Of a DNA stretch of 64,000 bases, positions 6,264-63,564 are shown one piece after another. Under the pieces are notes generated by a model, which was not told the origin of the DNA, made no database searches, and saw only the letters and a program-made list of their open reading frames with translations. The position numbers were made by a program, and so were the translations under genes. Within the stretch, counting starts at the first letter, position 1. The number at the start of each line of letters is the position of its first letter. Origin of the DNA: Bryum argenteum (Eukaryota > Streptophyta > Bryopsida > Bryales > Bryaceae); contig CM073322.1 in assembly GCA_037043015.1 (NCBI GenBank), forward strand, positions 4,227,601 to 4,291,600, in the 5' to 3' direction.

Positions 6264-7198
6264 TTAACCCCTAGAAGCATGGAGGTCTCTTTACTCTCAA
6301 ACATCTACGTGTTCGGATTGTAGCTATTAAAACAATAGTTATATATTTTTATTTCAATCGTCCGATCTTTTTGTTGACTTATTGTAGGTCACGTGAATGA
6401 AATTTTTACCCTTAGCGCCTCATCAATTGCAAGACCATAATGTATTCCTCACCAAAAAAATATTTTAAAACTCCATGAAATATAAATGCTACCAACAAAC
6501 CAACTGCTGTCACGAAATCTCCAATTTCTAAGTTATTTACCTTCATCTTATTAACAATCTTGTAAAAAATAAACCAACTAAAAATTTCTTGGCTCAATGA
6601 AATAGCTTTGCAATAGTAAAAAACTGCATTGATATTTCCGTAGGAAAATCAGTCCAAATCTATACATCTTGCACTTATATGTACGCCATGTCATTGTAAC
6701 AATTTTGATAAAAGTAACCTCTCTACCACAAGGAGTAGACATGTATTGGAATGCGAATCAACATACAAAGTTGAGATACAACAGTGGATGAGGGAGATAC
6801 AAGTTCTTGAAATCCACGCATTTCCTATGTTTTTTCTATACAAATACTTCCATAGAAATCTACCACAAAAATGATCATAGTGAACAAACCCTCAATTAAA
6901 ATAATGTTAGCTTTATCCAAAGATCACTCTTATGTATTAAAAATATCATGAAAGATTAAATGTCATCCAAATAATTGGTTCACAATGGCAAAACATGGCC
7001 CATGTTTCAAACCCTAATACAAAAGATGCCTTCACTAAAGTGGCCTCCAATTTAACCACACAAACTTGACTTGATTTGTGAACTAATTCAAGTGATTTGG
7101 TCCAAAACATGCTTCAAATTAAAAAGTTATGACACTTCAAAGTTTCAACTTGTCATCCAAAATGTCGAATTTTGACATTCTATACACTAAGGGGTTAA
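6264..7198 (+). mobile_element. Long TTAA-ended non-autonomous element, copy 1 (935 bp)
   Basis: Begins TTAACCCCTAGAAGC and ends CACTAAGGGGTTAA, so the outer ends are inverted repeats with TTAA outermost. The interior is co-linear with 21758-22758 and 46435-47250; shared blocks include AAAGTTATG.C(T)CTTCAA and CATCCAAAATGTC just inside the right end. There is no transposase reading frame, so it is non-autonomous. A TTAA boundary followed by CCC is the hallmark of piggyBac-type elements; the superfamily is inferred from ends alone. Confidence 0.6.
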
Positions 7199-7372
7199 GC
7201 ATTATGTCAACTAAATACTCTTCCATTGTAGTTGATGTGAAGCTGCAAGAAGAATCACATGACAAATCGCTCATCTTAAAGTAATGTAAGTAAGAGGAAT
7301 ATCCCTTGAAGTTTTTGAGTGAGCATTATCTAGATGAGAGAAAAAAACTCTAGTGTTCAACACCACCGTGAA

Positions 7373-7820
7373 TAAGGTAGGAGTCGTGAAAACCGTCCAG
7401 CCCCAAAAACCGCACAGTAGGTTTGTGGGTAGGGTCTGTAAAACCGTCTGTTCATGGTAAACTGACAGGTTTTGGGAACCATCCACTGTTTTTAGCTCCC
7501 ACCATGCATGCTGAACGGTTTTAGACAACTCCTATGTCAGTGTCCGAACCTATTTTAATTAATTTTGGGACATTCAATCCACAGTTTTCGGAATACAACC
7601 TTGCAAAAAAGCCAACACTCTATGTTCGGTTAGTGGGACTCCTAAGACTCGAGATTCAAAAATTCATAGGAAATTATAGGATTACTCAAAAAATGTTTTT
7701 TTTTTTTTTGGGATGGATTTGCACTAGCTTTGCAGATCATGGAAAAATAATTATAATTTTACACCACTATTCCAAGTATGCAAAGCTGAAATTCAGACGG
7801 TTTTCACCACTCCTACCTTA
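7373..7820 (+). mobile_element. TA-type MITE, AGGTAGGAGT family, copy 1
   Basis: Left end TAAGGTAGGAGTCGTGAAAA and right end, read inverse, TAAGGTAGGAGTGGTGAAAA form a terminal inverted repeat of over 20 bp bounded by TA. The interior shares blocks in order with 22901-23664 (GATTCAAAAATTCATAGG, GGATGGATTTGCACTAGC, CACTATTCCAAGTATGCAAA). A poly-T tract at about 7696 lies where copy 2 carries its TTTA array. A further internal end-like motif at about 7510-7535 suggests a nested or composite insertion. Confidence 0.65.
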
Positions 7821-8636
7821 CGGTAGAGGGGATAGCCAAACATGAAAGTAAACATTCACATGCGACGGGAAAGAACAACAAGCAGGTGAAACCCGGTGTC
7901 AGATACCCGGTGGAGGTGTGTCCAGGTCAGCGGGAATCCGGGTAACGGTTTCCAGTTACGGTGTGAAAGCGATGGTATCTCGGGGGCGGACCACGGTAAG
8001 TTAGAGTTCGATTCACCCTGCAAGTTTCCCCGTTTACCACGCCAACTGGCGGAGGGGAGGCGGAGAGGGCTGGGGCGCGGCAGCCGGCGGGATGAAAACG
8101 AAACGTGAGCGGCAGTAATAATTGAACGGCGAGGGGGAGCGAGTCGGAGTGAGTAGTAGTAGTAGTTGTTATTAGTACGACCACAGGCCAGGCCAGGCAG
8201 GGCCAGCGGCTGGTAGCGGCCACCCCGAACCCCGTCCGTCACTTCCCCTTTGCTCGCCGATTGCTCAGAACGGCTGGAGCACGCCTGTATTTAGTATCCC
8301 AGTCAAGAAGCTAGAGCATATTGTGCAATCACTCCACAGCTGCTTAGTCGGAATCCATCGGGAAGGGCAAAATCACTTTTCTCTGTTCACTGTGCCCCGG
8401 CGAGGGGCGTGCTGCCTACCTAATCCCCTTCCCTTTTGGACCTATGCAATCAGTGCGTAGTAGTTTGTAAGAAGAAGCAGTCCTTGCCCGCGAGCGCATC
8501 AATTCTCAGGTTGACTAGCGCTCCCTCCGATCTCTCCTGCCCTGGATCTGCTATTATGTGAGGTCAAGAGTTAGGTTGCGGCTGCTTGATAGCTGCGTTC
8601 TGTGTGTGTGAGAGCCGTGCTGTGTGAGAGTCAGTG
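7821..8636 (+). promoter_or_regulatory. Upstream region and leader of the PMT gene
   Basis: A GC-rich stretch between the MITE and the PMT start codon, likely promoter plus 5' leader. No clear TATA box is seen. The open frames here on both strands have no family features and look like composition artefacts. Just before the ATG is a GT-rich leader (8600-8636). Confidence 0.4.
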
Positions 8637-11600
8637 ATGTTGGGACGAGGTGCAGCGGCCGCCAGAATGCGGGGTCGCAACGATGGCGGCGCTCAGAAGC
8701 GCAAGGTGCTGGTCACCGTGTGCACTCTGGTGCTCATGTTCTCCGTTGTCTCGTTCTACCACGGCTCCTTCTTCAGCAATCGCAGCACCAAGACCGCTGT
8801 CGAGGATACATTTGATCCCTCCACTTCCGGTTGGAGCGCCAACCTCCTGAAAGATGAATCTGTGAAGTCTACTGGCGCTGATTTGAGCAGTGATGGACGT
8901 GCTGATGCTAAGGTGGCAAGAGACGAAGGGGCTTTGAAGGCTGATGACGATGCTGAAGTCAACAGTGTCGAGAAAGATGCATTTTCAGAGAAGATTGAAA
9001 CACCTGAGGAGGAATCCACATCCGACGGTGATTCGCCGAAAACCTTTCCCGTAAGTGCAACTGGATCTTGAATAAATTCAGTTATTAACAACTCGGAGAT
9101 TTGAATCTTTTGGTCTTGTCTGGAAGTTGGAGCTAGTAGTGTTTAACTGGGAAGGCATACCTTACACTCCGATCTTCTCTGCGGATCTACATTTTCGTTG
9201 ATCAGATGTTTCTTGCAATAGTGGAGCTTTCGGACATTGGTCCACCTCTTGTTGTCTCTTGATCTTTCATTTTTGAAATGCAAACAGTCATCATAGTGAC
9301 TTACGGAGGATTGATTTTTTCATTGTACAGGTTTGTGACGCTCAGTTCACTGAGATCATTCCCTGTCTAGACATCAGCATGAATAAAAAGCTGAAGCTGA
9401 AGCTCAATCATTCAGTCATGGAGCACTACGAGAGGCACTGTCCTCCAGCTGACCACAGACTCAATTGTGTTATTCCTCCTCCTCCTAATTACAAGGTACT
9501 AGATATTTTTGACTTTCATGACGTAGTTCATCTTGTGTCGTAAGGCTCTACTCTTCTTGTTCAGGATCCACCTAGCTGGGAGGATCGGAGCATTTTGTGA
9601 ACTTACAGCGAGCTCTCAGTCTGTCTCTTAATGATTGTTTCACAAATGCGCAGGTGCCTATCAGGTGGCCGAGAAGCAGGGATGAAGTCTGGCAATCTAA
9701 CGTGCCTCACACCTTTTTGGCAACTGAAAAGTCCGACCAGCACTGGATGGTCGTGGTTGGTCAGAAAGTGAATTTTCCAGGTGGTGGCACGCACTTTCCG
9801 AATGGTGCTGACAAGTACATTTCGTCACTCGCAAAGGTACGTCTGTATCCAGCAGGCTCTGTAGGGTACGCTAGATGTCACATGACCAACTCAATTATTT
9901 TCGATTCGTTTCCTGATTGCGGTAGGAAGAATCGAACTTCTAAAAGCTAAGAGATGTGGATCCTTCACATTTAGATCACCATAATTGTCTTTTCTCTACA
10001 CCTTAACAGAAGTTGACCATGTCGACAGCAGTCTATGGTTGGATAATTCACTCCTTTTGAGTGGTCCAGCTACGAGATCCGTAGTGCAATTTCCGAGTAC
10101 TGCATTTAGACATGATTTCGTGTTCCCCGGAAACAGTACTACTGTAGAAGAGTGCGGATTCATTTTATTTGTCTCGGTGATTACTTGTTCTGTAGGAAAA
10201 GAATATCGTCTACGATTTTTGGCCGCCATGGCAAAGTCTTTTACCTACCGGAATCGGTCAAATAATTTCTCTGCGGAATACCGTCAGCTTCTCGCAGTTC
10301 ATGATTGCAATTCTCTTTACCGATCGTGTTCTCCTTACACAGATGTTGAAAAACCCGGATGCGAACCTGAGCATGGATGGCAAAGTCAGGACTGTGCTGG
10401 ACGTCGGGTGTGGAGTTGCTAGCTTTGGTGCTTACTTGCTGCCTTTGGATGTAATTGCTATGTCACTGGCGCCTAATGACGTTCATCAGAATCAAATTCA
10501 GTTCGCTCTTGAAAGGGGTATTCCTGCCACCCTCGGGGTTCTAGGCACAAAGCGTCTTCCATACCCGAGCAAGTCGTTCGACCTAGCGCACTGTTCTCGC
10601 TGCCGTATTGAGTGGCACCAGAGGGATGGGATTCTTCTCTTGGAAGTGGATAGACTCTTAAGGCCTGGTGGATATTTCGTTTGGTCCGCTCCTCCTGCTT
10701 ATCGTGAGGACCCTGAAGACCAGCAGATCTGGAAGGAGATGTCGGCACTCGTGGCTTCAATGTGCTGGACTGTAGCCGCTCATCAAGATCAGACTGTGAT
10801 TTGGCAAAAACCCATGACCAATGAGTGCTATGAGAAGCGACCGGAGGGCCAAGAGCCCCTACTGTGCCAGAACAGTGATCCTGATAGCGCTTGGAATGTG
10901 CCTATGGAGGCTTGTATCACCCCTCTAACAGGTTGGTCACGAGCGCAATCTACCTTCATCTTCTTTCGACTCTATCACCATGAAGATTAGTGAGTACGAA
11001 TGGAGATGTTGGCTTCTTTGGTGTCTCGCAACTAGTTTTGGCAGCTCTTACTTCAGCACATTGACTGAGTTGTCTAAAGTTGAGACTTTTTGAGAACTCC
11101 ACATGTCAGCAAGTTTCATATTCACAGTTCTAGATCTTTTTACTGTGCAGAGGAAGGTAAGACTGTTGAGCCGTGGCCCAAAAGATTGCTGGCGCCGTCT
11201 CCTCGATTGAAAGATCTGAGAGTTGACGACAAGAAGTACCTTAGCGACACTGTAAGTTCTTGAACCTTCCCGCTTCTCGTACTTTCACAGAAGTTGTGTT
11301 TGGGTTTCCATTGTCCAGATGTGTATCGCACTGTTAAACTTAGTTGCGCTCTGACAGTTTCATTCTATGTACGTGCGCTGTCCACATGCATTTAATTTCA
11401 AGGCAACGTTGGTAGAGGCTTGACGCTTGCGGACGTATGTAACCTCGTGCAGAGCATATGGAAGAAACGAGTAGATTTCTACTTGAGAACTCTGAAGACT
11501 GCTAGCCAAATTGAGCAGAACAGCGTGCGGAACATCATGGATATGAAAGCGAATTTCGGCGGTTTCGCAGCTGCTCTCAGAGAAAAGGACATGCCTGTAT

Positions 11601-12280
11601 GGGTTATGAATGTGGTGCCATCATCTGGCCCCAACACTTTGGGGGTTGTCTATGATCGAGGATTTATTGGATCTCTACACAACTGGTAAGCATTTCTCAA
11701 CTTCCCAAGTTTCTTTTACTGTAAATAAGGTGCTGATTACACTACACGAAGTACGGCAGCATGTCAGATCAGGAAATGATTTTGATCCACTTGTTTCGTG
11801 TATACTTCGAATTCAAAATACGGACAGGACTACTATTATCACATCTGTTTCAGAGGACATTGTGTCCATTTCTCGATGCTGAAAGGACTCCCTTTGATTT
11901 TTTCAGGAACTTAGCAGTGTTTGCATTGACAAGGTTTTGAGAGTCGTTTCTACTTTGATATGTGTAGGTGTGAAGCCTTTTCAACATACCCACGCACGTA
12001 CGATATGCTGCATGCGTGGACCGTATTTTCAGACATTGAAAAGGAGCACTGCAGTATTGAAGATTTATTGCTGGAGATGGATCGTTTGTTGCGTCCGATG
12101 GGGATAGTTATCATCCGGGATAAGGCAGCTACAGTTGACCGTGTGAGCAAGTACTTAACAGCTCTCCGCTGGTCGAATTGGTCGAAGGTTGTCGACGCTG
12201 ATTCCGACGAGTTATCAGACGAGGATGAAAAGATCTTGTTTGCAAGGAAGGAGTTGTGGCAACCAGAAGACGCATTGTAA
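8637..12280 (+). CDS. Golgi PMT-type methyltransferase (PMT8/PMT9-like)
   Basis: Seven exons: 8637-9050, 9331-9495, 9654-9836, 10343-10931, 11151-11251, 11453-11685, 11968-12280. All have GT-AG borders and matching phases, giving 665 aa. It is a type II membrane protein: basic N-terminus, hydrophobic anchor at residues 24-42, an acidic stem, then a two-lobed DUF248/PMT methyltransferase domain. The family start CDAQFTEIIPCLD is in exon 2 and PIRWPRSRDEVW with FPGGGTHF in exon 3. The SAM-binding motif DVGCGVASFGAYLL is at 274-287 and EVDRLLRPGGYF follows. NIMDMKANFGGFAAAL is in exon 6 and WCEAFSTYPRTYDMLHAW spans exons 6 and 7. WKEMSALVASMCWT, QTVIWQKP and MEACIT resemble Arabidopsis PMT8/9. 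Related Golgi proteins (QUA2, QUA3) are linked to pectin homogalacturonan methylation; the substrate here is inferred. The first ATG in frame was chosen; an upstream GTG at 8634 was ignored. The sequence GATCCACC at about 9565 lies in intron 2 by this model. Confidence 0.9.
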
Positions 12281-14762: not shown

Positions 14763-14852
14763 GGCTTCCGAGATACTCTACAAAAGCACGAGGGATACAA
14801 AGAGCAGCAGGAAGTTGTAGGGCTTTATGGAGATTTTGAAGCAAAAGTCTCG

Positions 14853-14861
14853 AAACCCTAA
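14853..14861. promoter_or_regulatory. Telo-box upstream of the FMC1-like gene
   Basis: AAACCCTAA, 91 bp upstream of the start codon. Telo-boxes are known promoter elements of plant translation and growth genes. This is one of three in this window upstream of housekeeping genes. Confidence 0.5.
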
Positions 14862-15445: not shown

Positions 15446-15815
15446 TTAACCCTTAAACGCCCTTGGGGTCTAAAACGGGCAGCCCAAAATTGGATCACAG
15501 CATCTTTTGGACTTGGGCATCATGAATAGTGCACTTTTTGAACTTGGGCATCATGAATGGACCAATCAATGATGAGCTTGCAACCTCCTACAAGGTTATG
15601 TACCACCCCAACCTACCTACCACAATCCTTTCAAAGCACAAAATCCTTCATACAAATTGTGATTTGAATTGTAAAAATTCACTTTTTGAATGCATCATAA
15701 GATGGTGACCAGTTTGACATCAAAATATAAGTGAAAAGTTGGGTACAATGAGAGCTACAGGGAAGATTTTGTTGGAATCAAGCCCCTCGGGCTTGCTTGG
15801 GCGTTTAAGGGTTAA
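15446..15815 (+). mobile_element. 370-bp TTAA-ended MITE, family A copy 1
   Basis: Ends TTAACCCTTAAACGCCC and GGGCGTTTAAGGGTTAA are perfect inverted repeats with TTAA outermost. The interior (for example CAGCATCTTTTGGACTTGGG and ATTGATTGGTCC-type blocks) matches copies at 48328-48696 and, inverted, 49382-49752. A short direct repeat of GAACTTGGGCATCATGAAT lies inside. No coding capacity. TTAA|CCCT ends recall piggyBac. Confidence 0.8.
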
Positions 15816-21757: not shown

Positions 21758-22758
21758 TTAATTCCTAAACATGCTTGGCTATCTTTAGCCAAAAAACTCA
21801 ATTTTGAAAAAAATGTCATAGATGAAAATGAAGATGAGTTATTTAGATCTTAACTGTTCAAATTTGTAGTAAATCTATTGTAGGTCATGTGGACCAAAAT
21901 TTGATTCATGAAGACTCATAGATTGCGAGATCATAACGTCTTAGTCCTCAAACCAGACTACAAAATTCTATCATTTTCACTTTGAAGTGGAATGCTATCA
22001 ATAGACCACTTTGGTCCAGTTATTATTATTATTCTTGCAAGCGATCTTGGATTTGCAATGAAATTTTCACCGACTAGGAAGGTTTTCACCTTTATCTCAA
22101 TACACCCCTCTACCAAAAAAAGTCCTTGGCTCAAACAATAGCCTTGCAAGAATAATAACTGCAAAAACTTTTACAAATGAAAACTAGTCCAAAACTACAC
22201 TCCTTGTATTCAAATTCTTGCCTTACCTTTAAAACACCTTCAAATAGTTCAAGGTTTATACCACTAAAATTAAACTCTAGTTGGAATTCCTCCCACAAAA
22301 GAGTGTCAAAAGTCATCAGTGGATGAAGGAGGTATAGCTCCTCAAAAATTATCCTTTTTTCACTTTATTCATCGTAGAAACATCATTGCAAGTCCAATAC
22401 CAAATATATTTGGATCAAAAATCCTCCAACTAGAAAGTTTTCAGCCTATTTTTAGATTATGATCATATAAATTATTTTTTCATAAAACTATTTTTTTTGT
22501 CTTGCCATAATTACAATGGTAAATCATGCCCCATATTTTGAAAATCCAAAAATAAGAGTTGCCTTCACAAAAATGCATGCCATTTATTTATAGTTGATTT
22601 ATGGGTTTGAATTTTTACCACAAGAGTAGGCTATATTTAGAACCCAACCCAATTTATTTCATCCCAATTGAACTTTGGGTGAAAAAGTTATGGCTCTTCA
22701 AGAAATTTGCCCTTCATCCAAAATGTCATTTTTTGATATTAGGAGAGTTAAGGGTTAA
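21758..22758 (+). mobile_element. Long TTAA-ended non-autonomous element, copy 2 (about 1 kb)
   Basis: Starts TTAATTCCTAAACATGC and ends GAGAGTTAAGGGTTAA. The interior is co-linear with 6264-7198 and 46435-47250: GTAGGTCATGTGGACCAAAA, AGATTGCGAGATCA, then GGTAAATCATGCCCCAT and AAAAGTTATGGCTCTTCAAG. The left end has drifted more than the right. No transposase frame. Confidence 0.55.
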
Positions 22759-22900: not shown

Positions 22901-23664
<764 letters not shown>

Positions 23665-23879: not shown

Positions 23880-24082
23880 TTGAAAATTCGGTATATGAGC
23901 ATATACCGGAGTTCGAGCAGTTTTGGGCAGATTTTGAAGCTCAAAATGACATTTAAGAAAGGTAAGGAAAAATTCTACAATGTGCAAAAAGTTTCAACTT
24001 CATACGATCTATATTTAGTAATTGAGAACATGACCATAGTCTAATCGACCCCATTAGGGCTCATTTCGACATTAGGGGTTAA
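23880..24082 (+). repeat. TTAA-ended repeat fragment
   Basis: Ends ATTAGGGGTTAA. Blocks GGTATATGAGCAT and CAAAAAGTTTCAACTTCATA correspond in order to 50880-51030 (GGTATATGCTCAT, CAAAATGTTTCAACTTTGTA). The left boundary was not found. Confidence 0.4.
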
Positions 24083-24357: not shown

Positions 24358-24625
24358 TTAACCCCTAACTCTCCTTGTTGCAAAACGGTCTAAGTCACAA
24401 AATTTGACCTTCCTTTAGATTAACCTCAAAAAATCTCAATCCAAGCATTATTTAAAAGATTCAACGGTAAGATCTCAAAGTTCACTTGACATTCTTCTCA
24501 CATACCAAATTTGAACCGTTCATTCTTCCTTATTTATGAGATTATAATGGTCAAAGTTGGCTGAGTTTTTCTCCTGCGGAGACCTCCACAACCAGTTTCG
24601 GGTTTTAAGGAGAGTTAGGGGTTAA
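24358..24625 (+). mobile_element. 268-bp TTAA-ended MITE, family B
   Basis: TTAACCCCTAACTCTCCTT and AAGGAGAGTTAGGGGTTAA are perfect 19-bp inverted ends with TTAA outermost. The interior is AT-rich and non-coding. Only one copy was seen in the window, though the right end of 21758-22758 (inverse TTAACCCTTAACTCTCCT) is close to it. Confidence 0.75.
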
Positions 24626-38204: not shown

Positions 38205-38592
38205 TAGAGAAATCCGCTTAGTAGTCCCCAGTTTGGACCCCAGTTGGTCTCTAGTCCGTCGTTTCGTGCCTTGTTTTCAGTTATCTGCTAAGTAGAACGG
38301 ATTGGGGACCTAATGCACCCACATGGGGACCACATGTAAAGTAGGGACCTTCACACAAATTAACAACAATCGCGCTCCTTCGGTCTTCTGCGCATCACGT
38401 TGAGGACTCGGCACCAAGTTGAACTCACGACCAAACTCATAAGACCATCAAAATCATGCATTTTTGAGTTTAGTCCAGTCCCCAGTTCAATCTTAGAGTA
38501 AAAATTTGGTGGCCAGTTCGACGTTTGGTCCCGAGTCCGACCAAAACTAGGTGTTTTGGTCCCTAGTCCGTTGCACTTAGCGGATTTCTCTA
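38205..38592. mobile_element. TA-type MITE, GAGAAATCCGC family, copy 1 (388 bp)
   Basis: Ends TAGAGAAATCCGCTTAG and CTTAGCGGATTTCTCTA are inverted and bounded by TA. The interior matches 42925-43317 across its length (AGTCCCCAGTTTGGACCCCAG, GGTCTTC(T/C)G(C/T)GCATCACGTTG). No coding capacity. Confidence 0.85.
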
Positions 38593-39592
38593 ATGACTAC
38601 TGTTTTATACATCATTTGGCACACAAGCTCCAACATAGAGAATACTTACAATCTTAGAAAACTTTACCGTAGTTGCTTATCAATTTTAGCAAAGCTTAAA
38701 TTAGTTGGCTAAGATGCCGAAATGCTCTCAAACGTATGTTCACAGTTGAACTAAAATTTTGATTACTATCCGGTCTACAATGACCTCCAAGCACTCCGTT
38801 CTGAAATCAATAAATTATTCTTTTTAAAGTCTGAATTTGAAATTCCAACCGTGGGATCTTGTTCAAAGCCATCCAATTACTGTACCGACCAATTTTCATT
38901 AAATATGACCATACAAATCTTGAGATATATTGAGTCAAAGTTACAACTTTCGTAGAATCAGCATTTGTATTTCACAGAGACCAACTCCATTGACTATTAT
39001 GCCAAAATTCCTAAAAAATCCTTGATTGGTGTGCCAATTTTTTTTTAAAAATAATAAAATAGTTAAATATTCCGCAAGCCTTTGTGTGAAATTGATAATT
39101 TTTAAGAACAATACATGTGCAGAATGTAAAAGAAATATACGAAAAATAAATAAATTCACAAGAGGGGTGTCAAAGTTGGAAGCAATGAAATGGTTTCCCC
39201 CATTGTTTCCCACAATTTGGTAGACTATAGATTTCTCTTTTTGTATTTATCTTTTTTCCTTCAAAATTTTATCACATATTATTAACTTGAAGAGGTTTTT
39301 GTTCTTAGAATTATATGGCAAATAAAAAGAAAAGAAAAACTCAATCTCTTGGGAGGCTATCAAAGTTGGCAGCATGGAAAAAAGTTCCACAGCTATCAAT
39401 GTTGGTAGATTTTGAATAGCTTTTTTTTAGGAATTTTTTGGCCTTGAAATTTGGCAAATATGTAAGAAACTTAAAGAAAAGATTGAGGTAAAATACCAAT
39501 TATTGAGCTTTGAGGAGGCTTTCAAAGTTGGCAATATTGAAAATTTTCTCGCTTCAAATTCAAAAACGTCATTTTGTCTTGTACCCTATTAA

Positions 39593-42924: not shown

Positions 42925-43317
42925 TAGAGAAATCTGCTAAGTAGTCCCCAGTTTGGACCCCAGTTGGTCCACAGTCCGTTGTTTCGTGCCTTGTTTTCAA
43001 TTATCCGCTAAGTAGAACGGACTAGGGACCAAATGCACCAAATTGGGGACCAGATGTACACTAGGGACTTTCACACACAGATGAACAACAATCATGCCCC
43101 TTCGGTCTTCCGTGCATCACGTTGCGGACTGGGCACCGAACTGAATTCGGGACCAAACTCAGAAAACCATCAAAATCATGCATTTTAAAGTTTAGTCCCC
43201 TGTTCGATCTTGGAGTAAAAATTCGGTGCCCAGTTCGACGCTTGGTCCCCACTCCGACCAAAACTGGGTGTTTCACTGTTTTGGTTCCTAGTCCATCATA
43301 CTTAGCGGATTTCTCTA
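42925..43317. mobile_element. TA-type MITE, GAGAAATCCGC family, copy 2 (393 bp)
   Basis: TAGAGAAATCTGCTAAG and CTTAGCGGATTTCTCTA, TA-bounded, same orientation as 38205-38592 and co-linear with it throughout. Confidence 0.85.
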
Positions 43318-46300
43318 ATATTACTTGTCTTCTATAATGTCATCACTGCTCTCTATAATATTATTTGATATCTGGAATCTCATCAAAGTTTTCTATGATA
43401 ATACCTATAATTCCTTTTATATCACCTCTCTCTGAAATGAACAGCCTGGAAAATTGAGGTTTTGAGACAAATTCACATGTTTTTGGTGTTTTTCTTCTTT
43501 TTCGTTGCACTTAACTAGAACCAACCATTTCTGTGGACTACCTCCATTTCATTATTAATAGTTGAGAATTGTGATAGAGTACAGAAGGTGAGTACAGCTA
43601 AACTTGTAAAAAGTTAAGGTTCGAATAGGTGGTGAACGGTGATGTGTGAGATGCTACAGATAGTTCAAAAAGTTGATGCAATGGTCTTAGATGAGTGCTT
43701 GTGAAATATAGAATAGATGAGAGTGCAGATTGAATCTGTTATTGAAATCACAAAAACTAGAATGTACCCACAAACTCTGAAACATAAATAAAATGCTAGT
43801 AGTGGAGCTGGAAGCTGTTTGGTTTATGGACCATCGTTTAGTATTCATTGGATGATAAGATTGTTCAGAATCATGTAAACTATGTCGTTCCATCAAGTGT
43901 ATTAGATGTCATCCATGTTGCAGTGAACATGTATGGTTGATTCTGAACTCTATGTCAAATGAATAATGCAGTCATCTTTTTTCGATACACTTGGAAATTT
44001 CTCATGGTGTTCAACCCATATAGAAAATTAAAACCCAACACGGACCGAGGGGTTTTGAGGGTTTCCGCATGAACAACAAAACTTAGCCAATTTTAACATC
44101 TATAATCCCACAAATGAAGAAGAATCAACGCTTCAGATTTGGCTTGCATGTAGAATGTCAAGTTAAGTATAAGATCCTGCGGTTGGATTTTTAAAATATT
44201 TCTTAGATTGAGCTTTGTTTAGTCTTGAAATAGAAGAGGTCATTTTTTGTAATGTAAGCACTTTTGCACCAAAGATCAATCATTTGGTATGGCACTCTGA
44301 GGCAATGTGCAAGAAATATTTCAGTAAGATGTTAGATCCCAAAACATTCTTATGCATAAGTAGGATGGTGAGACAAATCCCGTACGGCACACACTCTAAA
44401 TTTTAAAAAAGTACACTAAGTGGAGATTGTGGGGGAAGTAAAGTGTAATAAGTATTTTAAGTGTCACTTAATACACACGGGCACAATTTCCGGGTTTCCT
44501 GCAAGAAGATTAAACCACATCGTGTATGAATGAAGGATAAGAAAGAAGTGGAGGTGCAAATAATGCTGCTTGGATCATGCATGAAGGGAAGAAGGGTGAC
44601 TCCTCATTCTGCAAGTATCAGGATAAAACTTCAAACTTCCAAGCAAGTCCCATGGACATGATTTTAGTGTAATTTGACACCCGTGGGCATTAAAGGGTTA
44701 AAGAGGCATGGATGATGCTCGTGATATGCACCGGCCCGGCCCGGCCCCGAGGGAGGGAGGGAGGGTCCGGGTCCGGGAGGGGTGGGTTGATGCTGGTGTG
44801 CATGGAAGCTGGGCAGCCTGGCAGAGTTGGCGCATGAAGGCAGGGTGAGGGACCACAGAGTAGTCGCTGGGCATGCCAAAAATTGGGCTCTCACTTTTGG
44901 GTGCTGCTTCAGCACGATCTGCAGTACCTCCCACCCCACCCACCTACCCATCAATTTGGGTTGAGGTCCCCGGCCCAGCCCCCTCGGCCCTCCCCCTCCC
45001 TCCGCTAGTCGTCCCTCCTCCTGATGTGGCATGTCGCACCCCACTGCATGCACACCCGCTTTTCCCCTTTGGCCCCTTTGGCCCCTTTCCAAGAATGAAG
45101 CCATGAGTCTCGCACTCTCGTTCTTCTTGTAGTTACCAAAAGCACATACACAATTCCATTCTCCAAATATTTTTATCAATTTTTCGATGCACTTTCCATT
45201 GACGCAGAATTCATTCTCATGTCATGTTTTGTTCTGCCCTCACTGTGGTCACTGTTGGTGAGCAACTTTTTCATGATGTATGATATATTTGTATATGAGC
45301 TGCAATACATTCTTGTCTAGATGGGAATTATTTTCTAAGTATTATCACTCAGTTGAATGTTGCTATTGACATGGTGGGTTAATGCTAAGACTTCTTCTCA
45401 TGTATGTAACTGTTTTACTAAGTAGATTGAACCTTATGTGTAAGGAAGATTTGTGATGGCCATTACGGTAGGTTGTTTCAACAAAAAGTTGGAATGTAGG
45501 TTATTCATTGAGATAACCTTTGATGTATTGGAGTAGTTACTATTGGCTTCTATTTCAACCAATATTTAAATGATTCTTGTTTCTTTACATATTGGTTTTG
45601 ATACTTTATGTTTGATGCATTGGCTAAAGTAACGTGATTAAAGTAACCAAAATATCATATACTTAGGTGTGAATAATGCAACTATAATCTTACCTTCTTA
45701 GGAGTTTGGGGTTGCTTGTAGGAGGAGGAATATGTTGTAGGAGTGGATCATGGTTATTATATAACAAAGCAACCACATTAGCATAGTGGATAAGTGTATC
45801 TTTGGTCAACTACCCAAAAAGTAAGTCAATTATACATGTTACTCTTGATATTGGACATGCGTGTTCAAAACAACAACCATCATACCAACTTGCCTTATAG
45901 TAGTCAACGACAAGACACATTTAGATACTGTATGTCAATTCTTCCGTTGTCTAGCAATGTTTTAGAATCTAAGTGCAAAAGGATATAGGTGCTTGACAAG
46001 TTTTCACCTAGTCAAGCTTCGTCAAAAGGTGCTTTAAAACAACTGCAAAGGTTGACCAAGTTGGAAAAGGTTGATACATGTTTACAATATATCCGAACTT
46101 ACTTGTACTATTCAGCCGATGTTGAAATAGTAGAAGAAAGAATCCAGTTTTAGAATTTGACCATAGTTTATAAACTGGGCCATTACTCATGACAATATAA
46201 CTTGTTCACACATTTGTAAAGTTATACCAACTGCAAAGAATTAAAGGTTGACCAAGTTGCTAGAATGAAATGTATATGCATTGGTGAGTTAAATTTTTGT

Positions 46301-46434: not shown

Positions 46435-47250
46435 TTAACCCCTAAAAATCTCACTCTGTTTTTAACTAAAAAAAAACACATCTTAAAAAAAAGTGTCATA
46501 GATGGAGATGAAGGTGACTTATTTAGATTGGACATGTACAATCTTTATGGTAGACTTATTGTAGGTCATGTTGATAAAAATTGGAGTCATAAAGCCTTGT
46601 AGATTGCGAGATCACTAACACGGGATTACACATTAGTGCGAAAAAGAAACCACAAATTTCATAATTTACACTCCAGTGTCCAAAACTAGATCCTTTGTAG
46701 TCAAACCTATGTCGTACCCTCAAAACACCTTTGATCAAATCAAGATTTCTACCACTAAATAGACTCTTTGTGGAATCCATCCCAAAAATAAAGTTGAAAT
46801 CTAACGGTGAATGAAGGAGATTTAGATTCACAAATTTCATCCAATTTTCTACTTTTTTCATTGGAAAACATCATTGCAAATCCAATACCAAAGTTATTTG
46901 GATCAAAAATTGTCCAACTACTTTTTTTTAGAATTCATCTTAAGTGCATCCTTTTGTAAAAATAAATGAATCAGGTTAACCTATTTTGATTCCACATACT
47001 TGGCTTGCAATGGTGAAACATGCCTTCTGTTTGAAATCCCAAGGACAAAAGTTTCCTTCAATTCAATGGATGCCATCAATTCATACTTTATTTTATGGGT
47101 TCGAAGATTTTATCACAAAAAATAAACTCAATTTGAGGCTCAATCCAAGTGATTTCATCCAAAATGGACTGGAGATGAAGAAGTTATGGCTCTTCAAGTT
47201 GTTGCTTGTCATCCAAAATGTTGTTTTTCAATATTCGATAAGGCACCCAT
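46435..47250 (+). mobile_element. Long TTAA-ended non-autonomous element, copy 3
   Basis: Starts TTAACCCCTAAAAATCTCAC. The interior follows copy 2 closely: AAAGTGTCATAGATGGAGATG, TAGATTGCGAGATCA, TCAATTCATACTTTATTTTATG, AAGAAGTTATGGCTCTTCAAG, CATCCAAAATGTTG. The right end is eroded and its border is approximate. Confidence 0.55.
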
Positions 47251-47377: not shown

Positions 47378-47765
47378 TTTGGAATGTTTAGGGCACCACA
47401 AGCCTTGGCTTGGTGGTTAGGGCTTGGGCCCCCAATAAGGAGGTCGTGGGTTCCATTCCCCATGCCGGCGTAGTGCTCACCACTATAGTCCACCCAACTA
47501 TTGTGGGGGGTCTTAGGACCTTGTTGTATGGGTACCTCAAAGCCCTTTGGGGGGATACTATGTCAAGTATCTCCAAGGCATTAGTAACTAGGCTAGAAAC
47601 TAGCGTAGTTATAGTGTCCACCCTCGAGAGGGGGAAGTAGTATTGTTCCAATTTCCCTTTGTCCGGTGGCCATCGGGATATTAGCATTACGAACGGACAC
47701 TTCATTCACGCCGGCCCCTTAGAAAGGGACCGGAGTTTCTATCTATCTATCTTTGGAATGTTTAG
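47378..47765 (+). mobile_element. tRNA-derived SINE, copy 1, with 14-bp target-site duplication
   Basis: Body 47392-47751 (360 bp) between two perfect copies of TTTGGAATGTTTAG (47378-47391 and 47752-47765). The head is tRNA-like: an A-box-like TGGCTTGGTGG at 47406-47416 and a B-box-like GGTTCCATTCC at 47449-47459, at tRNA-like positions 15 and 58 of the element. The tail is a short TATC repeat rather than poly(A). The middle is not recognised. Its closest relative is the inverted copy at 61611-61994. Confidence 0.88.
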
Positions 47766-47810: not shown

Positions 47811-48331
47811 TTGAGGGCCCAAGGGCATTTTTGAGCCTTCAAAGTTGAGGTATGATTTAAGATATTTTTCCCATATGGTATTTCCAACAGCAAGAACTTC
47901 AAATTAACTACTTGCACTAACATCATGTAAAATTTCAACCGTTAGATCTTTCCCCTTTGTGAGATGATAACGTCCAAAGCTAATTCAAAAAAAAATTTGC
48001 GGAACTTTGGAGCTTGCTCTTGTAAAATGGTAAAAGCTTGAACTTGAATTTTTGTTGAAATTTCAGTAGTAGTATCATCATAAACATATTTCTCAAGAAG
48101 AAATCCAATAAAATACTAAATTTTGCTACCTTATGTGGGCTTCAAAACTAAAATTTGTGTTAAAAACTTTTAGTTAAGAATTTGACTTTGCAAATTCTCA
48201 CACACACATACCTTAGAGAATAAGAAACATCCAGTAAAAAACTAAAGCAAAAACAATAATTTAAACCCCTTCATCTAGGATGCACATAACAACAAAAGCT
48301 CATTTGGGTTTCTTGGGCTGGTAGGGGTTAA
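47811..48331 (+). mobile_element. TTAA-ended element, family C copy 1
   Basis: The right end GGTAGGGGTTAA is clear. The left end near CCTAACTCTTGAGGG is degraded. The interior is co-linear with 50117-50713: CAACCGTTAGATCTT, GCTTGCTCTTGTAAAAT, CTTCATCTAGGATGC, AAAAGCTCATTT. Its terminal TTAA (48328-48331) is also the first TTAA of the next element. Confidence 0.55.
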
Positions 48332-48696
48332 CCCTTAAAGGTCCTTCCACTCCTCAATGGGCAACCTACAATTGGATCTCAGCATCTTTTGGACTTGGGC
48401 AACATGAATAGTGCACTTTTTGAACTTGGGTAGCATGAATGAACCAATCAATGATGAGTTTGCAACCTCCTACAAGGTTTTGTGCAATCCCAATCTACCT
48501 ACCACAATCCTTTCAAAGTACAAATCACTCATACAAATTGCGATTTGAATTGTAGGATTTCACCTTGTAGATGCATCACAAAAAGATGACGAGAATGTAA
48601 TAAAAAAACAAGTGACAAATTGAGAATCGAAATAGCTACAGGCAAGATTCTGTTGGAAAACAGCCCGAGGGGCTGACAGGCGCCTTTGAGGGTTAA
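48328..48696 (+). mobile_element. 369-bp TTAA-ended MITE, family A copy 2
   Basis: Starts TTAACCCTTAAAGGTCC and ends CGCCTTTGAGGGTTAA; the ends have drifted but the interior matches 15446-15815 closely. It abuts the family C element on its left through a shared TTAA. Confidence 0.78.
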
Positions 48697-49146: not shown

Positions 49147-49385
49147 TTAAGGGAGAGTGCTCAAAATTGGAGCGGTATCAATAATGGAGCACTATGCTTC
49201 AAGACACAGAGGTACATAATGGCTTCTTCGCTCAACTGTAGCATGTACTCACTGCAAACATTATAGTGTGCAGAATTAGGGCACCATTTTAGTAACACCT
49301 ACAAGATCGCCTTCAAAAATTCATATCTTCATTACAGATTGGGAAATCTGAAATTTTTTTGCCAATTTTGAGCACTCTCCCTTAA
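49147..49385. mobile_element. 239-bp TTAA-flanked MITE, family D
   Basis: GGGAGAGTGCTCAAAATTGG (49151-49170) and its perfect inverse CCAATTTTGAGCACTCTCCC (49362-49381) are each flanked on the outside by TTAA. This is the cleanest TTAA-target example in the window. The right TTAA is shared with the next element. Confidence 0.85.
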
Positions 49386-49752
49386 CCCTTAAACGCCCAA
49401 GCAAGCCCGAGGGGCTTGATTCCAACAGAATCTTCCCTGTAGCTCTCACTGTGCTCAACTTTTCACTTATATTTTGATGTCAAACTGGTCACCTCCTTAT
49501 GATGCATTCAAAAAAAGAAATTTTACAATTCAAATCACAATTTGTATGAGTGATTTTGTGGTTTGAAAGGATTGTGGTAGGTAGGTCGGGGTGGTACATA
49601 ACCTTGTAGGAGGTTGCAAGCTCATCATTGATTGGTCCATTCATGATGCCCAAGTTCAAAAAGTGCACTATTCATGGTGCCCAAGTCCAAAAGATGCTGT
49701 GATCCAATTTTGGGCTGCCCGTTTTAGACCCCAAGGGCGTTTAAGGGTTAAA
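49382..49752 (-). mobile_element. 371-bp TTAA-ended MITE, family A copy 3 (inverted)
   Basis: Starts TTAACCCTTAAACGCCC and ends GGGCGTTTAAGGGTTAA. The interior is the inverse of 15446-15815 along its whole length with few differences, so it is a comparatively young copy. It is directly joined to the family D element at its left TTAA. Confidence 0.82.
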
Positions 49753-57200: not shown

Positions 57201-59994
57201 CTACAAGGCGGACTTCATCCGAGGTCGAGGCAGAGACTGGCCTCCATCGGCGATGAAAACGTTGCACGTGAGGTAGTGGCCGTGGTCACTGGCCAGTAAA
57301 GCAATAAGAGCTTCAAGGTCATGCACGGGATCCGTCCATCTCTGCAACGGCATCTTCTTAGCCGCCCCCTCAACTTCCTGCTCGCTGCTTGAAGCCAGCA
57401 ACAGGTCTGTCTTGGACAACCCCCTCACAACAGCTGCCACCATCACTCCATACTTCCCCAGCTCCATTCCCATGTACTGCACATCAACATCATCACTCCA
57501 TATCACCATCTCCTCTTCATCACTGTGATAGAGCTAAGTGCCTTTCACGATAATATCATTTGTTTTCCACCAGAAAGTGCAATGTTCACCGTTCAGCTGT
57601 TATATTTCGATCAAGGGACCAGGCAACTTACCTTGGATAACTGATGGAGCCCGGCCAGGGCAGATCCGTGCACAGAAACTCCCGGATAGTAACCTCTGTC
57701 GAGGCCGGTGACGTAGGAGACGAAGATTATAGAGCTCGGTTGTAGTTTTTGTGATGCTTTCATTCGCTGAGCCACCGCCCTAGCCACTAGCCACGGTGCC
57801 TTCATGTTCAGTGTCATGATTTCGTCCCAGTCAGATTCCTTGTAATCTAGCGGAGACTTGAGATCACCTGCACAAGCCAAGAGGAACAATCAGACCACTC
57901 TAACTTCCACCTCCTCAGCCAAAGATGTCAATGAACCAATAAAGTTATCCTCCATAACTGAAAACCAATCCAATCAATCCGATCACTACTAGAACTAAGA
58001 GAGGCTTGCAAAATAAAACTGTAAAGTTTCATACAAATGTTCCTCAGGTGGAGCAACATCTTGCTTTAGCAACAACATCGAGTTATAAAAGTTCAGATGA
58101 TGTTACTTATCGAAACGATAGCATTGTTAATTTTGCTGAAAGCATAGTTACCAATAACATGTACAAAGACGTTGCTTCATTCAAATCTTAACAGTATGAT
58201 TCCAATGAAACTGATGAGAATATCAAATTCGTTTCATCTACAGGATAACTCTGTAGAGATTGACCTCTCCGACAGAGTACGGAGGCTTGAGAACGTTAAG
58301 TAACCTATTTCTCGCGAATCGAGAACAGTGCTCGCGAAGCGAGAACCTCCGGAGGACCACTACGTGCTTCGTAGTAGTAGATTCCAATAATGAAAACATC
58401 GAATCCCTCTCAGTCACAAGATAACTCTGATGGAAATTGAGAACGTTACAGAGTATGATGCTAAACAGTGCTCGCGAATCGAGAACCTCTGAAGGAACAC
58501 TATGTGCTTCATAGATAACCTGATATTGGATACCAGTCCCTCGTAACCAGAAAAAATGACATCCACAGTAACCAGCCAAATAGCATAATGGAGTGAGAAC
58601 CATGCCCTTGTAACACATGTGCTTAAACACTACCAGACGCTTCAGTAATATACACAAGAGTCGAGAATGGCATTTCTCAAACCGCAAAAGAAGGCAGGAT
58701 GATGATAATATTTGACCACGCTCTCACTCTCTTCTCTCTCTCTCTCCAAGATGACGAGGCAACTACGCATCGAACATGATGAACCCTCTTATTGCTCTTA
58801 CAAGTCATTGTATTGTGAGCATCGCCAACAACTTTGGTTATTCCAGTGATTTCAATGTCCATCTCCGTGATGGGCATATGTTAGTTCTCATATCAAGGTT
58901 GTACAAGGTTACTCCCTTGGTTGTTGAGGGTGACTATAGTAATCTGATATCGAACAAAAGCATGTCAGTTACCTGGAACGCTGGAGCAGTAAAGAAGGAC
59001 GTCAATAGTTCCAAACATGTCCCATGCTTGACCCACGGCTGCATCAATACTAGTCTCTCCCCCTCGAACATCCAATTCCACTTTCCGCACCGACTGTGAT
59101 CAAACACACATGCACAAATTCAGTCGGATACTAGAATCTTTCCACCTTTTTGAAATCCTTTTGACCCTCAACAGCAACATGGTCAACACGGTCAGCGCTG
59201 TCTCGGTAGTCACAACGGTTTGTTGTTCGCAGTGGAGACAGTGATCCTAAGTCTACAGCGTTGAATTTTTTAACCACTTTCTAAATTCTGGGTACTCCAA
59301 TGAATGAGTACAACCGTAACTGGACAAGAGAATCTAGGGTTAATATTGGTCCCATTCGTACTGTATTTGGACTCAGATACCGTAGGAAATCATGCATATA
59401 TCCCTCAAGCTCTAGGCGATCACCAACAAATTCAACGACACTTATAATGCGCAAGGACTAGAAAAGTACACCGTCTGACGATTAGTGATGTCCAAACATC
59501 TTGGAACGTTAGAGCTTCTTCTTGAATTCGGATACTTTCAGAACTTGTCAAAGAACTTATGGTTAGAATCCTCCTTCAATTGCTATAAACACCCCACAGT
59601 TCTTTAACAAAGAATTCATGCTAAGGACCGTTGAAATCCTCGTTCGATTGCTATAAGGGCTCTACAGTCATTCTGGATCGAACTTCTGGATCGATTCTTA
59701 GAATCCGATGCTTAGTTTCCGATGTAGATAGATACCGTAACCCTCAAATTCAACTGCCTGCATTGTAAGAAAGAAAGGCTAGATATTCAACGATACCTCA
59801 CTGAAAGCTTTGATGCTATTGTAAGCTGATTGAAGCGGCGACGATGATGACCTTCCAGCGAGAACGATTCGGCATCCCTGCTTGGCAAGAGGTGCGGCAA
59901 GCTCGTAACCCAAATCCTGTGCAACGCTCACCACCAGAATTGTCTTCCCTTTGAGAGCAGCGCCTACCCGACGCCCACCTCTGAATTCCGCCAT
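57201..59994 (-). CDS. Short-chain dehydrogenase/reductase-like protein, catalytic motifs degenerate
   Basis: Four exons on the minus strand: 59994-59797, 59093-58973, 57867-57632, 57476-57201. GT-AG borders and matching phases give 276 aa, the usual classical SDR size. Fold features are clear: KGKTILVV for the first strand, GCRIVLAGR after the cofactor helix, VELDVRGGETSIDAAV, AWDMFGTIDVLL, then DWDEIMTLNMKAPWLVARAV, GLDRGYYPGVSVHGSALAGL and a C-terminal LTCNVFIADGG. The family resembled is the plant SDR group with GINRGQLPG and MALELG motifs. The functional motifs are altered: TGxxxGIG is VSVAQDLG (23-29), NNAG is YCSS (101-104), and catalytic Ser, Tyr and Lys align with Y158, H173 and L177. 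Only the conserved Asn (N127) remains. The open frame over four exons suggests a working protein without normal oxidoreductase chemistry. No transit peptide is obvious. Confidence 0.85.
58242..58530. repeat. Tandem duplication with palindromes inside SDR intron 2
   Basis: GATAACTCTG...GAGAACGTTA...CAGTGCTCGCGAA(G/T)CGAGAACCTC...ACTA(C/T)GTGCTTC(G/A)TAG occurs twice, starting about 58243 and 58423. Within it are short palindromes such as CTCGCGAAGCGAG and CTACGTGCTTCGTAG. Confidence 0.75.
59540..59700. repeat. About 70-bp tandem duplication inside SDR intron 1
   Basis: GAATCCTCCTTCAATTGCTA followed by an ACAGTTCTTT word recurs as GAAATCCTCGTTCGATTGCT followed by ACAGTCATTC. Imperfect, two units. 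Confidence 0.55.
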
Positions 59995-61610
59995 GGCCAA
60001 TTCACAACGAAAAACACAACCAAGCCTGGACTCTAAATCTGTCTCTGATAGGAAGGCAATTCAGTAAGATATGAAAAAGTTTGTGATGACCGCGCCGGAA
60101 AACGGTGAATCTAAATTCTAGAATGCTGATTGGCACCGCTATCGGTGGAATTGCGATTGAATGTAGTCAGAGTAGCTGATGCAATCGAGGCGTGGCCTGG
60201 CCGGGAAATTCTGCCGCCACTGAGGTCGCAATCGAAGGAAAGCAGGCTGCTTCGCTGGAACATGGAGCCGTGACGTGCCGTGATGTACCGCGGCGGCTGT
60301 GGTGATGGTCGAGGTGTCCGCTTTGGATGAGTAAAGCGGTACCAACGAATGTCGTCCATCTCTATTTGGATGAGCTCTGTTTGGTTTAGTTCCGTGCATG
60401 CTCGAACTCTTGCTGGGTCCAAGGGTCACTTTTTGGAGAAACCTTGAAATCACCTATGACGGGGTGCCCCAGATTTTTCAATTGCTTGTGCTTATGAAGT
60501 GACTTTTGAGAATAGATTGGAGAGTATGAGTACAGTCCTCTGAAAAGAACTGAAGGGACCCCGAAGTAAGAAGGCTCTTGGGTGATCCAGAGGCATCTCA
60601 TTTTGCCAATTGATACTATGACACTAAATTTTACATTTGCATTCTCGTTGGCATTAATTAATTTGCAGTGAGATGAGGGGAATGATAGGGATATGGTATG
60701 GATGGTGTGGATGGTATGTATGATATGGTGATTCGGGAATTGTCCCTTATGGTTTGAGGATGAGGAGGTCTATTGGTGGACAAAGAAATTCAAAAGGGAT
60801 GGTTGAGTTGGCATGCTAACCCACCATTCCATACTAATTCAGCAACTCGAACTAATTCAATTTGCACTGCCATGTGAAACCCCCACAAGAGGGTCCATGT
60901 GGCACCCCACCATTAAGTAATTGTTCTTCCTTCTTCTATACCCTCATCTCACTGTGAGGGTATAATTATCTCACAATTAGAGAAGCTTACATATCTCATT
61001 TGCAAACTTACAGAGCAAAGGGAATCGTAATTTTGCAGTCTGTGAGGTCATTGCATGATACTTGATTTTCCTCATCGAAGAGAAAACAAATATCGTGAAG
61101 ATCATGTCTTGTCACTTTTGATTTAAGACATGAAAGAAGTTGCAACCACAAGCTTGTGGTATGGCAGTATTGATCTTGCAAGCGAGAAAGCAAATCACAG
61201 TACGTTAAGTGCTACTGCCACTGCCGGCAGCATGATGTAGAAAGCTCTAAATATGCTCTACCCACCTCATAATCACATCTTGGGCGGCCTGCCTTCTTTG
61301 TTGTGTAGTTGATTAGAGCATATCACTTGTGCTCTATCCAAATGCTTACCAAATGCTTACTTGTTGTCTGAATTGTGATTGTCGAAAGGGTGACTACAAA
61401 GAGGGAGAATTCATGTGCTTGAAAAAAGAACAGTATAGGTGGAAAGAAATCCATGGCCCATCTCTACGCCACACAACAAGTACTAAAGTGACTGTACCTT
61501 TGTTCAGATGTCGGAGGCATTTTAGATAAAGGCCATGTGTTGTTCTGGAAGCTCGGTACAACTCTTCAAATAAAATCTAAAACCCTAAACCTGAGCATGG
61601 CATGTTAAGG
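59995..61610. other. Upstream of the SDR-like gene, then spacer
   Basis: The first 450 bp are GC-richer and probably promoter and leader of the minus-strand gene. Around 60660-60730 lies a GGTATGGATGGTGTGGATGG-type simple stretch. No other gene recognised. Confidence 0.4.
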
Positions 61611-61994
61611 TCACTTTGGGGAAGAGATAGAGATAGAAACTCCGGTCCTTTCTAAGGGGCCGGCATGAATGAAGTGTCCGTTCGTAATGCTGATATCCCG
61701 ATGGCCACCGGATAAGAAAAATTAGAACAATACTACTTCCCCCTCTCGAGGATGGACACTATAACTACGCTAGTTTCTAGCCTAGTTACTAGTGCCTTGA
61801 AGATACTTGACATAGTATCCCCCCAAAGGGCTTTGAGTTACCCATACAACAAGGTCCAAGGACCTCCCACAATAGTTGGGTGGACTATAGTAGTGAGCAC
61901 CACGCCGGCATGACGAATAGAACCCATGACCTCCTCATTAGGGGCCTAAGCCCTAACCACCAAGCCAAGGCTTGTGGTGCCTCACTTTGGGGAA
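61611..61994 (-). mobile_element. tRNA-derived SINE, copy 2, with 13-bp target-site duplication
   Basis: Body 61624-61981 (358 bp, minus strand) between two perfect copies of TCACTTTGGGGAA (61611-61623 and 61982-61994). The head reads CCTTGGCTTGGTGGTTAGGG, as in copy 1, with GGGTTCTATTCG in the B-box position. The tail is CTATCTCTATCTC. Sequence is about 90% the same as copy 1 by eye across the whole body. Confidence 0.88.
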
Positions 61995-62972
61995 CATATT
62001 GGTGTTGCTAGCAAATCAATGGACAACACCATATCAGAATTTAAATATGTCCCATACAACATACATAAATCTCCATTACATATTCTAAGGGTATTCCCAA
62101 GGACATGGCTAAAGAACTCGCTATATGTAGTTAGGGAGGAGTGGTTGTTAAATATAAGATTCCTTTGAATTCACACCCTTTTCAGACGGAGTGGCAAAAT
62201 GACCTTGCTATATTCTCTCTTCTACCACACCATGACATAATCCAAAAGTACTTGAAGTCCAAAAGTTTTGAGGTTTTCCGTGGCATGTAGTCTCCCAAAA
62301 GTCAAGTTAACCTTGAAGTAAGTGACGTGTTTGAGTGAGAGTTGATGGGTAGCCACGTTATGGCACCCCTCGGTTTGTCGGTTGGAAGAAGAAGATGTCC
62401 GTTGGGAGAAGAGAATGATTGTGTCGGGCTAAATGTAGCCAATCTTGTCCCTTGAGCTAGTCCATTTAGAATGCCCTAAGATGTTGGGCCGCTTTATGTC
62501 ATTAGGAGTCAAATTGTTCATAAGACTCAAATGATGATAATCTTCTCATATGATTGGTCCATTTTTAAAATTTGACCCAAAGAGACTTAGATGTAGATTG
62601 AGAGTCAATTATTTGAATTTAAATATTAATATGGGGGGACAAGTTATGACATGGCCTATGCTCCAAATTTTGAGAGCCACAAGGATGTAAAGCCAATTCA
62701 TGGTCTTAGACCCTTTCTTGATTTCATTACAAGTATAAATTCATGTGTATGGTGAGGCGAAGGTCTCAAAGACTCCCAACACCAATTTCAAATTACATTG
62801 ACCCTCCTTATAAAATCTATGGAAAAAAAGCCTTTATGGTTTTGAATATATCTTAAGGAGATTCTAAAAAGCAACTATTTGAAGAGATGGCATTTACCAA
62901 ATCACAATATTCCTATGGAGAGTTGAGGTCTCGCCAACCGGATGATCTCACTTTATGTGTTATAGAATGCAG
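61995..62972. other. AT-rich spacer
   Basis: No gene or repeat recognised. Confidence 0.4.
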
Positions 62973-63564
62973 TTAACCCTTAATCGTCACCGATGACCAA
63001 ACTGGTCACCAAGGTCATTGTATTTGCTTTTAGGGTCCGACACAGTGGTAGGGTGCAAATCTTGTCCAAAGGCACCCCTATTCTTTTGTTTTTCCGAATC
63101 CAATGCTCCTTCCCGATCGCCTTCTTGAGGTTTGTGTGATTCGCGCGCAATTGTAGGGGCCACGTGATCCCATGGTCAATGCTCTTTGACTTGGCCTTTC
63201 TTTTTATTTTTTTGACGATTTTTTTTCAAAATAATAAAAAATCTTGATCTTTATCCCTATACCATGCTCTATGATGCCAATTTTCAGAAAAAATGACCTA
63301 AGGGGGGAAAAACCAAAAAAACAATATGATATTTCTCACTCATGATCAGCAACCAAAACATTTTTTTCTCAACGGTGCCATTTTTTGAGATTTTACCCGA
63401 TGTGATCAATCTTTTTTGCATTGGTCACATCACCAAGTTACCTTGATAATCACCGTTTCCGATTCTCAAAATTGTTTTACCTTAGTGCAGAAATAAGGCC
63501 AGAAGACAATGAGGTTGCATTTCTCTCCAATTTGTGGAAAACAAGGATGTCAATTAAGGGTTAA
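62973..63564. mobile_element. 592-bp TTAA-ended element, family E
   Basis: TTAACCCTTAAT and ATTAAGGGTTAA are perfect 12-bp inverted ends, with weaker matching inside them (CGTCACC against TGACATCC inverse). The interior is AT-rich and non-coding. Single copy here. Confidence 0.6.

Follow-up and report, generated by a model that had tools for sequence, protein, structure and literature searches.

TTAA-flanked repeats in the moss Bryum argenteum as very probable non-autonomous piggyBac elements, with transposase-bearing relatives elsewhere in the genome

The piggyBac transposon, derived from animals, is a standard tool for scarless insertion, and the T. ni element has CCC ends, as do the elements described here. 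Among animals, the partial text of PMC2872659 describes piggyBac-related MITEs in coral that are short and non-coding; the repeats reported here are of the same kind, but their host is a plant. PiggyBac has been listed among the superfamilies present in every group studied (PMC4438587) and among the MITE superfamilies of angiosperms (PMC10004981), and its presence in plants as such is therefore not new. For mosses, the accessible part of PMC5505980 mentions piggyBac solely as a tool of animal origin that was "yet to be tested in P. patens", and a literature survey covering titles and the beginnings of abstracts, with subscription papers and preprints mostly outside its scope, found no description of a native moss piggyBac. 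An earlier reading of the present DNA, made from its letters alone (the sequence-only reading), had called piggyBac little documented in land plants, and its native biology in this group has indeed hardly been described.

The current study concerns a stretch of 64 kb on contig C2 of the Bryum argenteum genome (the window) and the relatives of its repeats across the genome. We consider it highly probable that the repeat families A, B and E are non-autonomous piggyBac MITEs of a moss, and probable that the old long repeats are as well. They would be moved by the transposases of 4.9-6.4 kb elements located elsewhere on the same chromosomes. In such a system, the transposase would recognise the CCCYTAA inverted ends and cut the element out, leaving a TTAA that piggyBac would re-seal scar-free, and the element would then insert at another TTAA, which would thereby be duplicated.

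The features of the window are collected in Table 1. Families A, B and E carry TTAA and CCCYTAA-type inverted ends exactly where the sequence-only reading had placed them, and the motif TTAACCCYTAA occurs at 19 sites in the window with at most one mismatch, whereas 100 shuffles averaged 2.74 and never gave as many as 19. Family A has 2760 first-look candidates in the genome; all but one of the 40 further matches listed share 98-99% identity with the copy at 15446, and the remaining one 95%. Its diverged copy has TTAACCCTCAA at one end, and the inverted copy has its left TTAA next to the right end of repeat D. The inverted ends of family B are identical over their first 14 bp, and the family has 1914 first-look candidates, with the copies that were scored mostly at 95-96%. 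The window copy of family E agrees with two others at 592/592 and 591/592 positions, and the insertion at 62973 thus appears to be very young. The three long repeats form one family, 70-78% alike over parts, and seem to be old and partly eroded. They had also been described as TTAA/CCC-ended, which is correct for both ends of the copy at 6264, but fails for the left end at 21758 and for the missing right end at 46435. The copy at 21758 is ~69% alike to the sequence L001, whose match also stops at the TTAA there.

Table 1. Repeats and repeat ends of the window, with positions counted from its first letter.
Feature	Position	Strand	Remarks
Long non-autonomous repeat	6264..7198	+	935 bp; TTAACCCC at both ends
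Family A MITE	15446..15815	+	366 bp plus TTAA target copies; TTAACCCTTAAACGCCC ends
Long non-autonomous repeat	21758..22758	+	1001 bp; left end eroded TTAATTCC, right end TTAACCCTTAA
Unpaired single TTAACCCCTAA end	24072..24082	-	
Family B MITE	24358..24625	+	264 bp plus TTAA
Long repeat, left end only	46435..47240	+	right end lost
L031-type element, left-end relic	48136..48331	-	71% to L031 1-196; abuts the A copy at 48328
Family A MITE, diverged copy	48328..48696	+	87% to the 15446 copy across 197 nt
Repeat D	49147..49385	+	AGGGAGAGTG ends; not assigned to piggyBac
Family A MITE, inverted	49382..49751	-	96% to the 15446 copy
Family E MITE	62973..63564	+	588 bp plus TTAA

The genome comprises 258.8 Mb in 25 contigs, of which eleven are chromosome-sized (7.0-44.1 Mb, 258.4 Mb in total), a chromosome number in keeping with a moss. 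Among its genes, an eL24 gene lies within the window; its six best matches are plant ribosomal proteins at 233-244 bits, and the rest of the 60 matches listed reach at most 118 bits, except for one 75-residue wheat chain. Elsewhere on the same contig, the gene at C2:13162170 scores 313-314 bits against chain 9 of both 7xqp and 8htu, while other chains among the 60 listed reach at most 182 bits, apart from multi-stretch chains of 9vfj. We take both structures to be the photosystem I supercomplex of Physcomitrium containing Lhcb9, which is an antenna protein restricted, to our knowledge, to mosses. A second antenna gene is only slightly closer to 7xqp/8htu than to other plants.

The sequence-only reading had noted that the window lacks a matching transposase and had placed the source elsewhere. 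Both points are borne out: tblastn with six of the transposases as queries revealed no piggyBac transposase within the 64-kb window (best E 0.76), and the genome contains piggyBac elements of 4.9-6.4 kb. Exact TTAACCCYTAA occurs 28,902 times in the genome (14,364 + 14,538), versus 745 (361 + 384) for the reversed pattern. The search for DDE_Tnp_1_7 (PF13843) that had been suggested at the same time returned 775 first-look candidates, of which 116 were scored, all at E <= 1.4e-69. The same profile found nothing in 14 control genomes (0/14), a weak control because those named are bacteria. Absence of the transposase or a different target duplication had been named as grounds against piggyBac; on both counts the opposite was found, with DDE_Tnp_1_7 present and a target duplication of 4-bp TTAA.

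Twenty transposase loci were fetched and searched for two TTAA sites enclosing mutually matching inverted ends, and 14 of them are bounded by TTAA and CCC inverted ends, with lengths of 4946-6395 bp. The TTAA of these 14 is partly circular and not independent evidence, because the bounding search required it. Twelve of the bounded elements begin with CCCYTAA; the exceptions are L028 (CCCCTCA) and L029 (CCCCAAA). For L021, the second-ranked TTAA pair was chosen because L022 shares that pair, and the weakest agreement between an element's own two ends was 11/16 (L029) and 12/16 (L030). The remaining six loci (L023, L025, L027, L034, L039 and L040) gave no clean TTAA pair in this search, although L034 was resolved later. 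Within this set, L033, L035, L036 and L037 are 99.8% alike across 5.7 kb, with the similarity ending at TTAA and the flanks beyond unrelated. L034 is 99.84% identical to L033 and has ATAA at both sides; since it lies between two copies of ATAA, the duplication must be 4 bp long and external to the element.

Near-identical transposase copies are found on C2, C4, C8 and C9. At annual substitution rates of about 5e-9 to 1e-8 per site, the ~0.16% divergence of the L033 group would correspond, as a rough inference, to an age on the order of 0.1 million years. Such near-identical full-length copies suggest recent piggyBac jumping in a land plant, and the system is presumably active today. The rival that survives best is that these elements are only a relic, with the burst already over and the identical copies owed to segmental duplication or assembly effects. 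Stops in some transposase copies, eroded ends in some, and the age of the long repeats all speak in its favor. However, the near-identical copies lie on four different contigs with unrelated flanks in those compared, and copies of E that are 592/592 identical occur on C2 and C5 within different flanks. Identical copies in different flanks are not expected from duplicating a segment, and we therefore regard a relic as unlikely, albeit with an appreciable residual chance.

How firmly the MITEs can be tied to these transposase-bearing elements differs among the families. The two ends of family A match those of L021/L022 at 24/30 and 27/30 positions in one orientation, which is the best result among the 11 elements compared; for the diverged copy at 48328, the match to L021/L022 is not clear. 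The interior of family B resembles portions of the right-end region in elements of the L031/L033/L024 type (71-76%), and its ends match the sampled elements only in part. Shared ends with a transposase-bearing element thus appear clear for A, its diverged copy excepted, and partial for B. Family E found no good match among the ends of the sampled transposase elements (best 18/30 and 16/30), and its exact 20-bp end, which occurs 38 times in the genome, was not seen near a transposase when these 38 sites were compared by eye with the coordinates of the 116 scored transposases. The missing partner for E is what could favor a second rival, in which A, B and E come from a different superfamily, for example Kolobok, which also targets TTAA, and the piggyBac transposases are merely unrelated neighbors. 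We consider this very improbable, as both ends of A match bounded elements encoding piggyBac transposases, the interior of B matches L031/L033/L024-type elements, and the CCCYTAA start is common to most of the bounded elements. The piggyBac kinship that had been proposed for the window repeats accordingly applies to A, B and E, and plausibly also to the long repeats; on B and E, the transposases would act in trans.

The target site provides a further test of this assignment. TTAA stands at both sides of all copies examined, i.e., 21/21 for A, 22/22 for B and 11/11 for E, the latter including the window copy. The A and B samples consisted of 20 stretches each, some with two full-length copies, and partial pieces were excluded. 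The copies examined were the best-scoring full-length matches, and a mild bias toward TTAA exists among them because the queries included it. Beyond the TTAA, no base is common to more than 12/21 A copies or more than 14/22 B copies, and tandem copies share a single TTAA (L060, L080). The duplicated target of A, B and E is the 4-bp TTAA.

Uninserted relatives of these sites were sought for 62 elements (21 A, 22 B, 5 from the window and 14 autonomous), whose two flanks were joined and compared with all fetched sequence. A spanning match was obtained for 14 of the 62 joins, and in four of the 62 an uninserted relative carries one TTAA. For A_L042, this is the case in three of five relatives, namely L030 (93.9%, 197 bp), L001 (87.8%) and L005 (93.3%, with a gap nearby); for A_L049 in its one relative (77.5%); for B_L066 in 21 of 28; and for the autonomous L031 in one of five (83.4%, with a gap nearby). 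For four joins, the tandem neighbor was the sole match, and the wA2 join is ambiguous because an element end forms its left flank. The spanning relatives of five joins (A_L059, B_L063, B_L067, B_L073 and wA1) contain no TTAA; this can reflect a target arising by mutation or drift of the relatives, and these five give the case no support. Among the E joins, 1/11 has a spanning relative (L096, 74%). Excision itself would be precise in such a system, leaving a single TTAA.

Repeat D was examined likewise without yielding a strict TTAA, and thereby offers a contrast to A, B and E from within the same window. It too had been counted as a TTAA family with piggyBac kinship, and the window copy does read TTAA-GGGAGAGTG...CACTCTCCC-TTAA. 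Genome-wide, however, TTAA precedes only 59 of the 446 exact GGGAGAGTGCTC ends (controls, 1 and 9, respectively), and none of ten fetched relatives, several of them degenerate, has TTAA at both sides; D was therefore rejected as a piggyBac family. TWA precedes 282 of its ends (TWA-GGGAG; control, 1), and among the first 100 of these listed, 97 have TAA rather than TTA. L089 reads TA-AGGGAG...CTCCCT-TA, with one A counted to the element. Since TAA is the usual sequence and any base may stand in front of it, D reads as having a TA target. Tc1/mariner Stowaway-like elements have a TA target, and the ends of D may follow this pattern, with many copies degenerate; a PIF/Harbinger-like assignment of D was dropped in its favor. 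Copies of D are mostly 77-87% alike, and the repeat would thus be older than the A and E copies. That A, B and E might themselves be PIF/Harbinger or Tc1/mariner elements whose 3- or 2-bp duplications mimic TTAA is the least credible alternative of all, since, despite plentiful PIF/Harbinger-type transposases (PF13359; 420 candidates, 150 scored) and the apparent TA target of D in the same window, it is contradicted by the TTAA at both sides of every A, B and E copy examined, the ATAA on either side of L034 and the uninserted sites with a single TTAA.

In six of the transposases, DDE_Tnp_1_7 is the sole Pfam match, and P0007 and P0008 have the same match plus one below threshold each. Against the PDB, P0006 and P0002 reach E 7.7e-24 to 2e-29 with piggyBat (9c0f) and T. 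ni piggyBac (6x67); the best match of P0006 is 9c0f (E 3e-26), with the cysteine-rich end included. D558, D649, D766 and D769 are invariant in all eight aligned transposases and align with T. ni piggyBac, whose catalytic aspartates we take to be D268, D346, D447 and D450. A C-terminal cysteine pattern, with predicted zinc binding, is found in six of the eight (P0002-P0006 and P0008); this end is missing from the P0001 frame and cut short in P0007. Open frames extend up to 1331 aa.

Upstream of the transposase, a conserved stretch of ~95 residues is found in 19 of the 20 loci, all except L025, with a profile built from nine of them. The profile also matches the diverged loci L027, L039, L023 and L040, which were outside it, at E 3e-19 to 1e-10. 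In L039 and L040, the stretch occupies residues 25-115 and 23-115 of one uninterrupted frame with the transposase, and is thus an N-terminal domain there. Its link to the transposase is uncertain in L023, where it lies ~3 kb upstream, and in L038 it is split across two frames. In L024, L026, L031 and L033, a GT-AG intron-like stretch, as read by eye, separates the domain from the transposase, and the frames do not join simply. Pairwise dN/dS of the domain is 0.06-0.35 in five of seven comparisons, although some of these have dS >2 and are rough, and the other two are saturated. AlphaFold, given 13 sequences, predicts a helical fold (mean pLDDT 87.5, pTM 0.78). The domain had no convincing Pfam family and no clear structural relative in the PDB, and it is possible that the moss piggyBac transposases have a new protein architecture. 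Extending this further, mosses could harbor their own long-resident piggyBac branch, which gained the ~95-residue helical N-terminal domain, perhaps as a plant-adapted DNA- or chromatin-targeting module, and in which at least two lineages still jump and keep up a population of well over ten thousand TTAA MITEs. We offer this as a tentative picture that falls slightly short of an even chance.

The mechanism of the moss piggyBac is ordinary, while its host and scale are unusual. Intact-looking, near-identical elements together with thousands of MITE ends would supply plant-adapted transposases and would allow the effects of TTAA insertion on plant genes to be studied, and they raise the question of the role of the added N-terminal domain. 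Compared with T. ni piggyBac (IFP2), as described in the available portion of PMC7351741, the moss elements share the TTAA target, DDE_Tnp_1_7, the same four aspartates and a C-terminal cysteine-rich domain. Their length of 4.9-6.4 kb is distinct from the 2472 bp given in partial sources for the T. ni element, and their N-terminal domain is predicted to be folded, whereas the corresponding T. ni region is disordered according to the accessible text of PMC9499001. The piggyBat of Myotis lucifugus is the best PDB match of P0006, though the sequence similarity is only distant, and the moss elements differ from it in their length, in frames of up to 1331 aa and in the predicted folded N-terminal domain. 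A related case is the domesticated PiggyMac of Paramecium, which, in the part of PMC8086355 that describes it, combines a piggyBac core with a long (220-aa) N-terminal domain; unlike PiggyMac, the moss genes reside within multi-copy elements with inverted ends.

L039 and L040, two genomic loci with piggyBac transposases, share with 17 further piggyBac loci a conserved N-terminal domain, roughly 95 residues long and predicted to be helical. At L039 and L040, the domain and the transposase share a single reading frame; at some of the other piggyBac loci, an apparent intron accompanied by a frame offset lies between them. Comparison with Pfam and the PDB yielded no convincing relative of this domain. 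L034, a copy of the transposase-bearing element L033 (99.84% identity), is flanked on both sides by ATAA in place of TTAA.

Within the window, repeat D (49147-49385, plus strand) has the ends AGGGAGAGTGCTC, preceded by TA, and 446 such ends occur genome-wide. It is probably a Stowaway-like family. The 268-bp inverted pair belongs to another repeat family. PIF/Harbinger-type transposases (PF13359) are likewise abundant in the genome, with 420 candidates, 150 of which were scored.

Coordinates of the domains, repeats and gene matches
Feature	Location	Remark
N-terminal domain	L039:952-1257	same frame as transposase
N-terminal domain	L040:956-1267	same frame as transposase
Inverted repeat pair, 268 bp each	window 47392-47659 and 61714-61981	93% alike
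Long (TTTA)n array	window 22966-23577	beside 21758-22758 repeat
Direct repeat pair	window 38205-38594 and 42925-43319	~85-88% alike, 4.7 kb apart
Partial antenna-domain matches	genome contigs C5 8.16-8.41 Mb, C5 14.73-14.76 Mb, C2 25.06-25.09 Mb	

Elsewhere in the genome, approximately 35 of the 90 antenna-domain matches cover only part of the profile, many of them in tandem arrays. These partial matches resemble early light-induced proteins, expansions of which are known from desiccation-tolerant plants.
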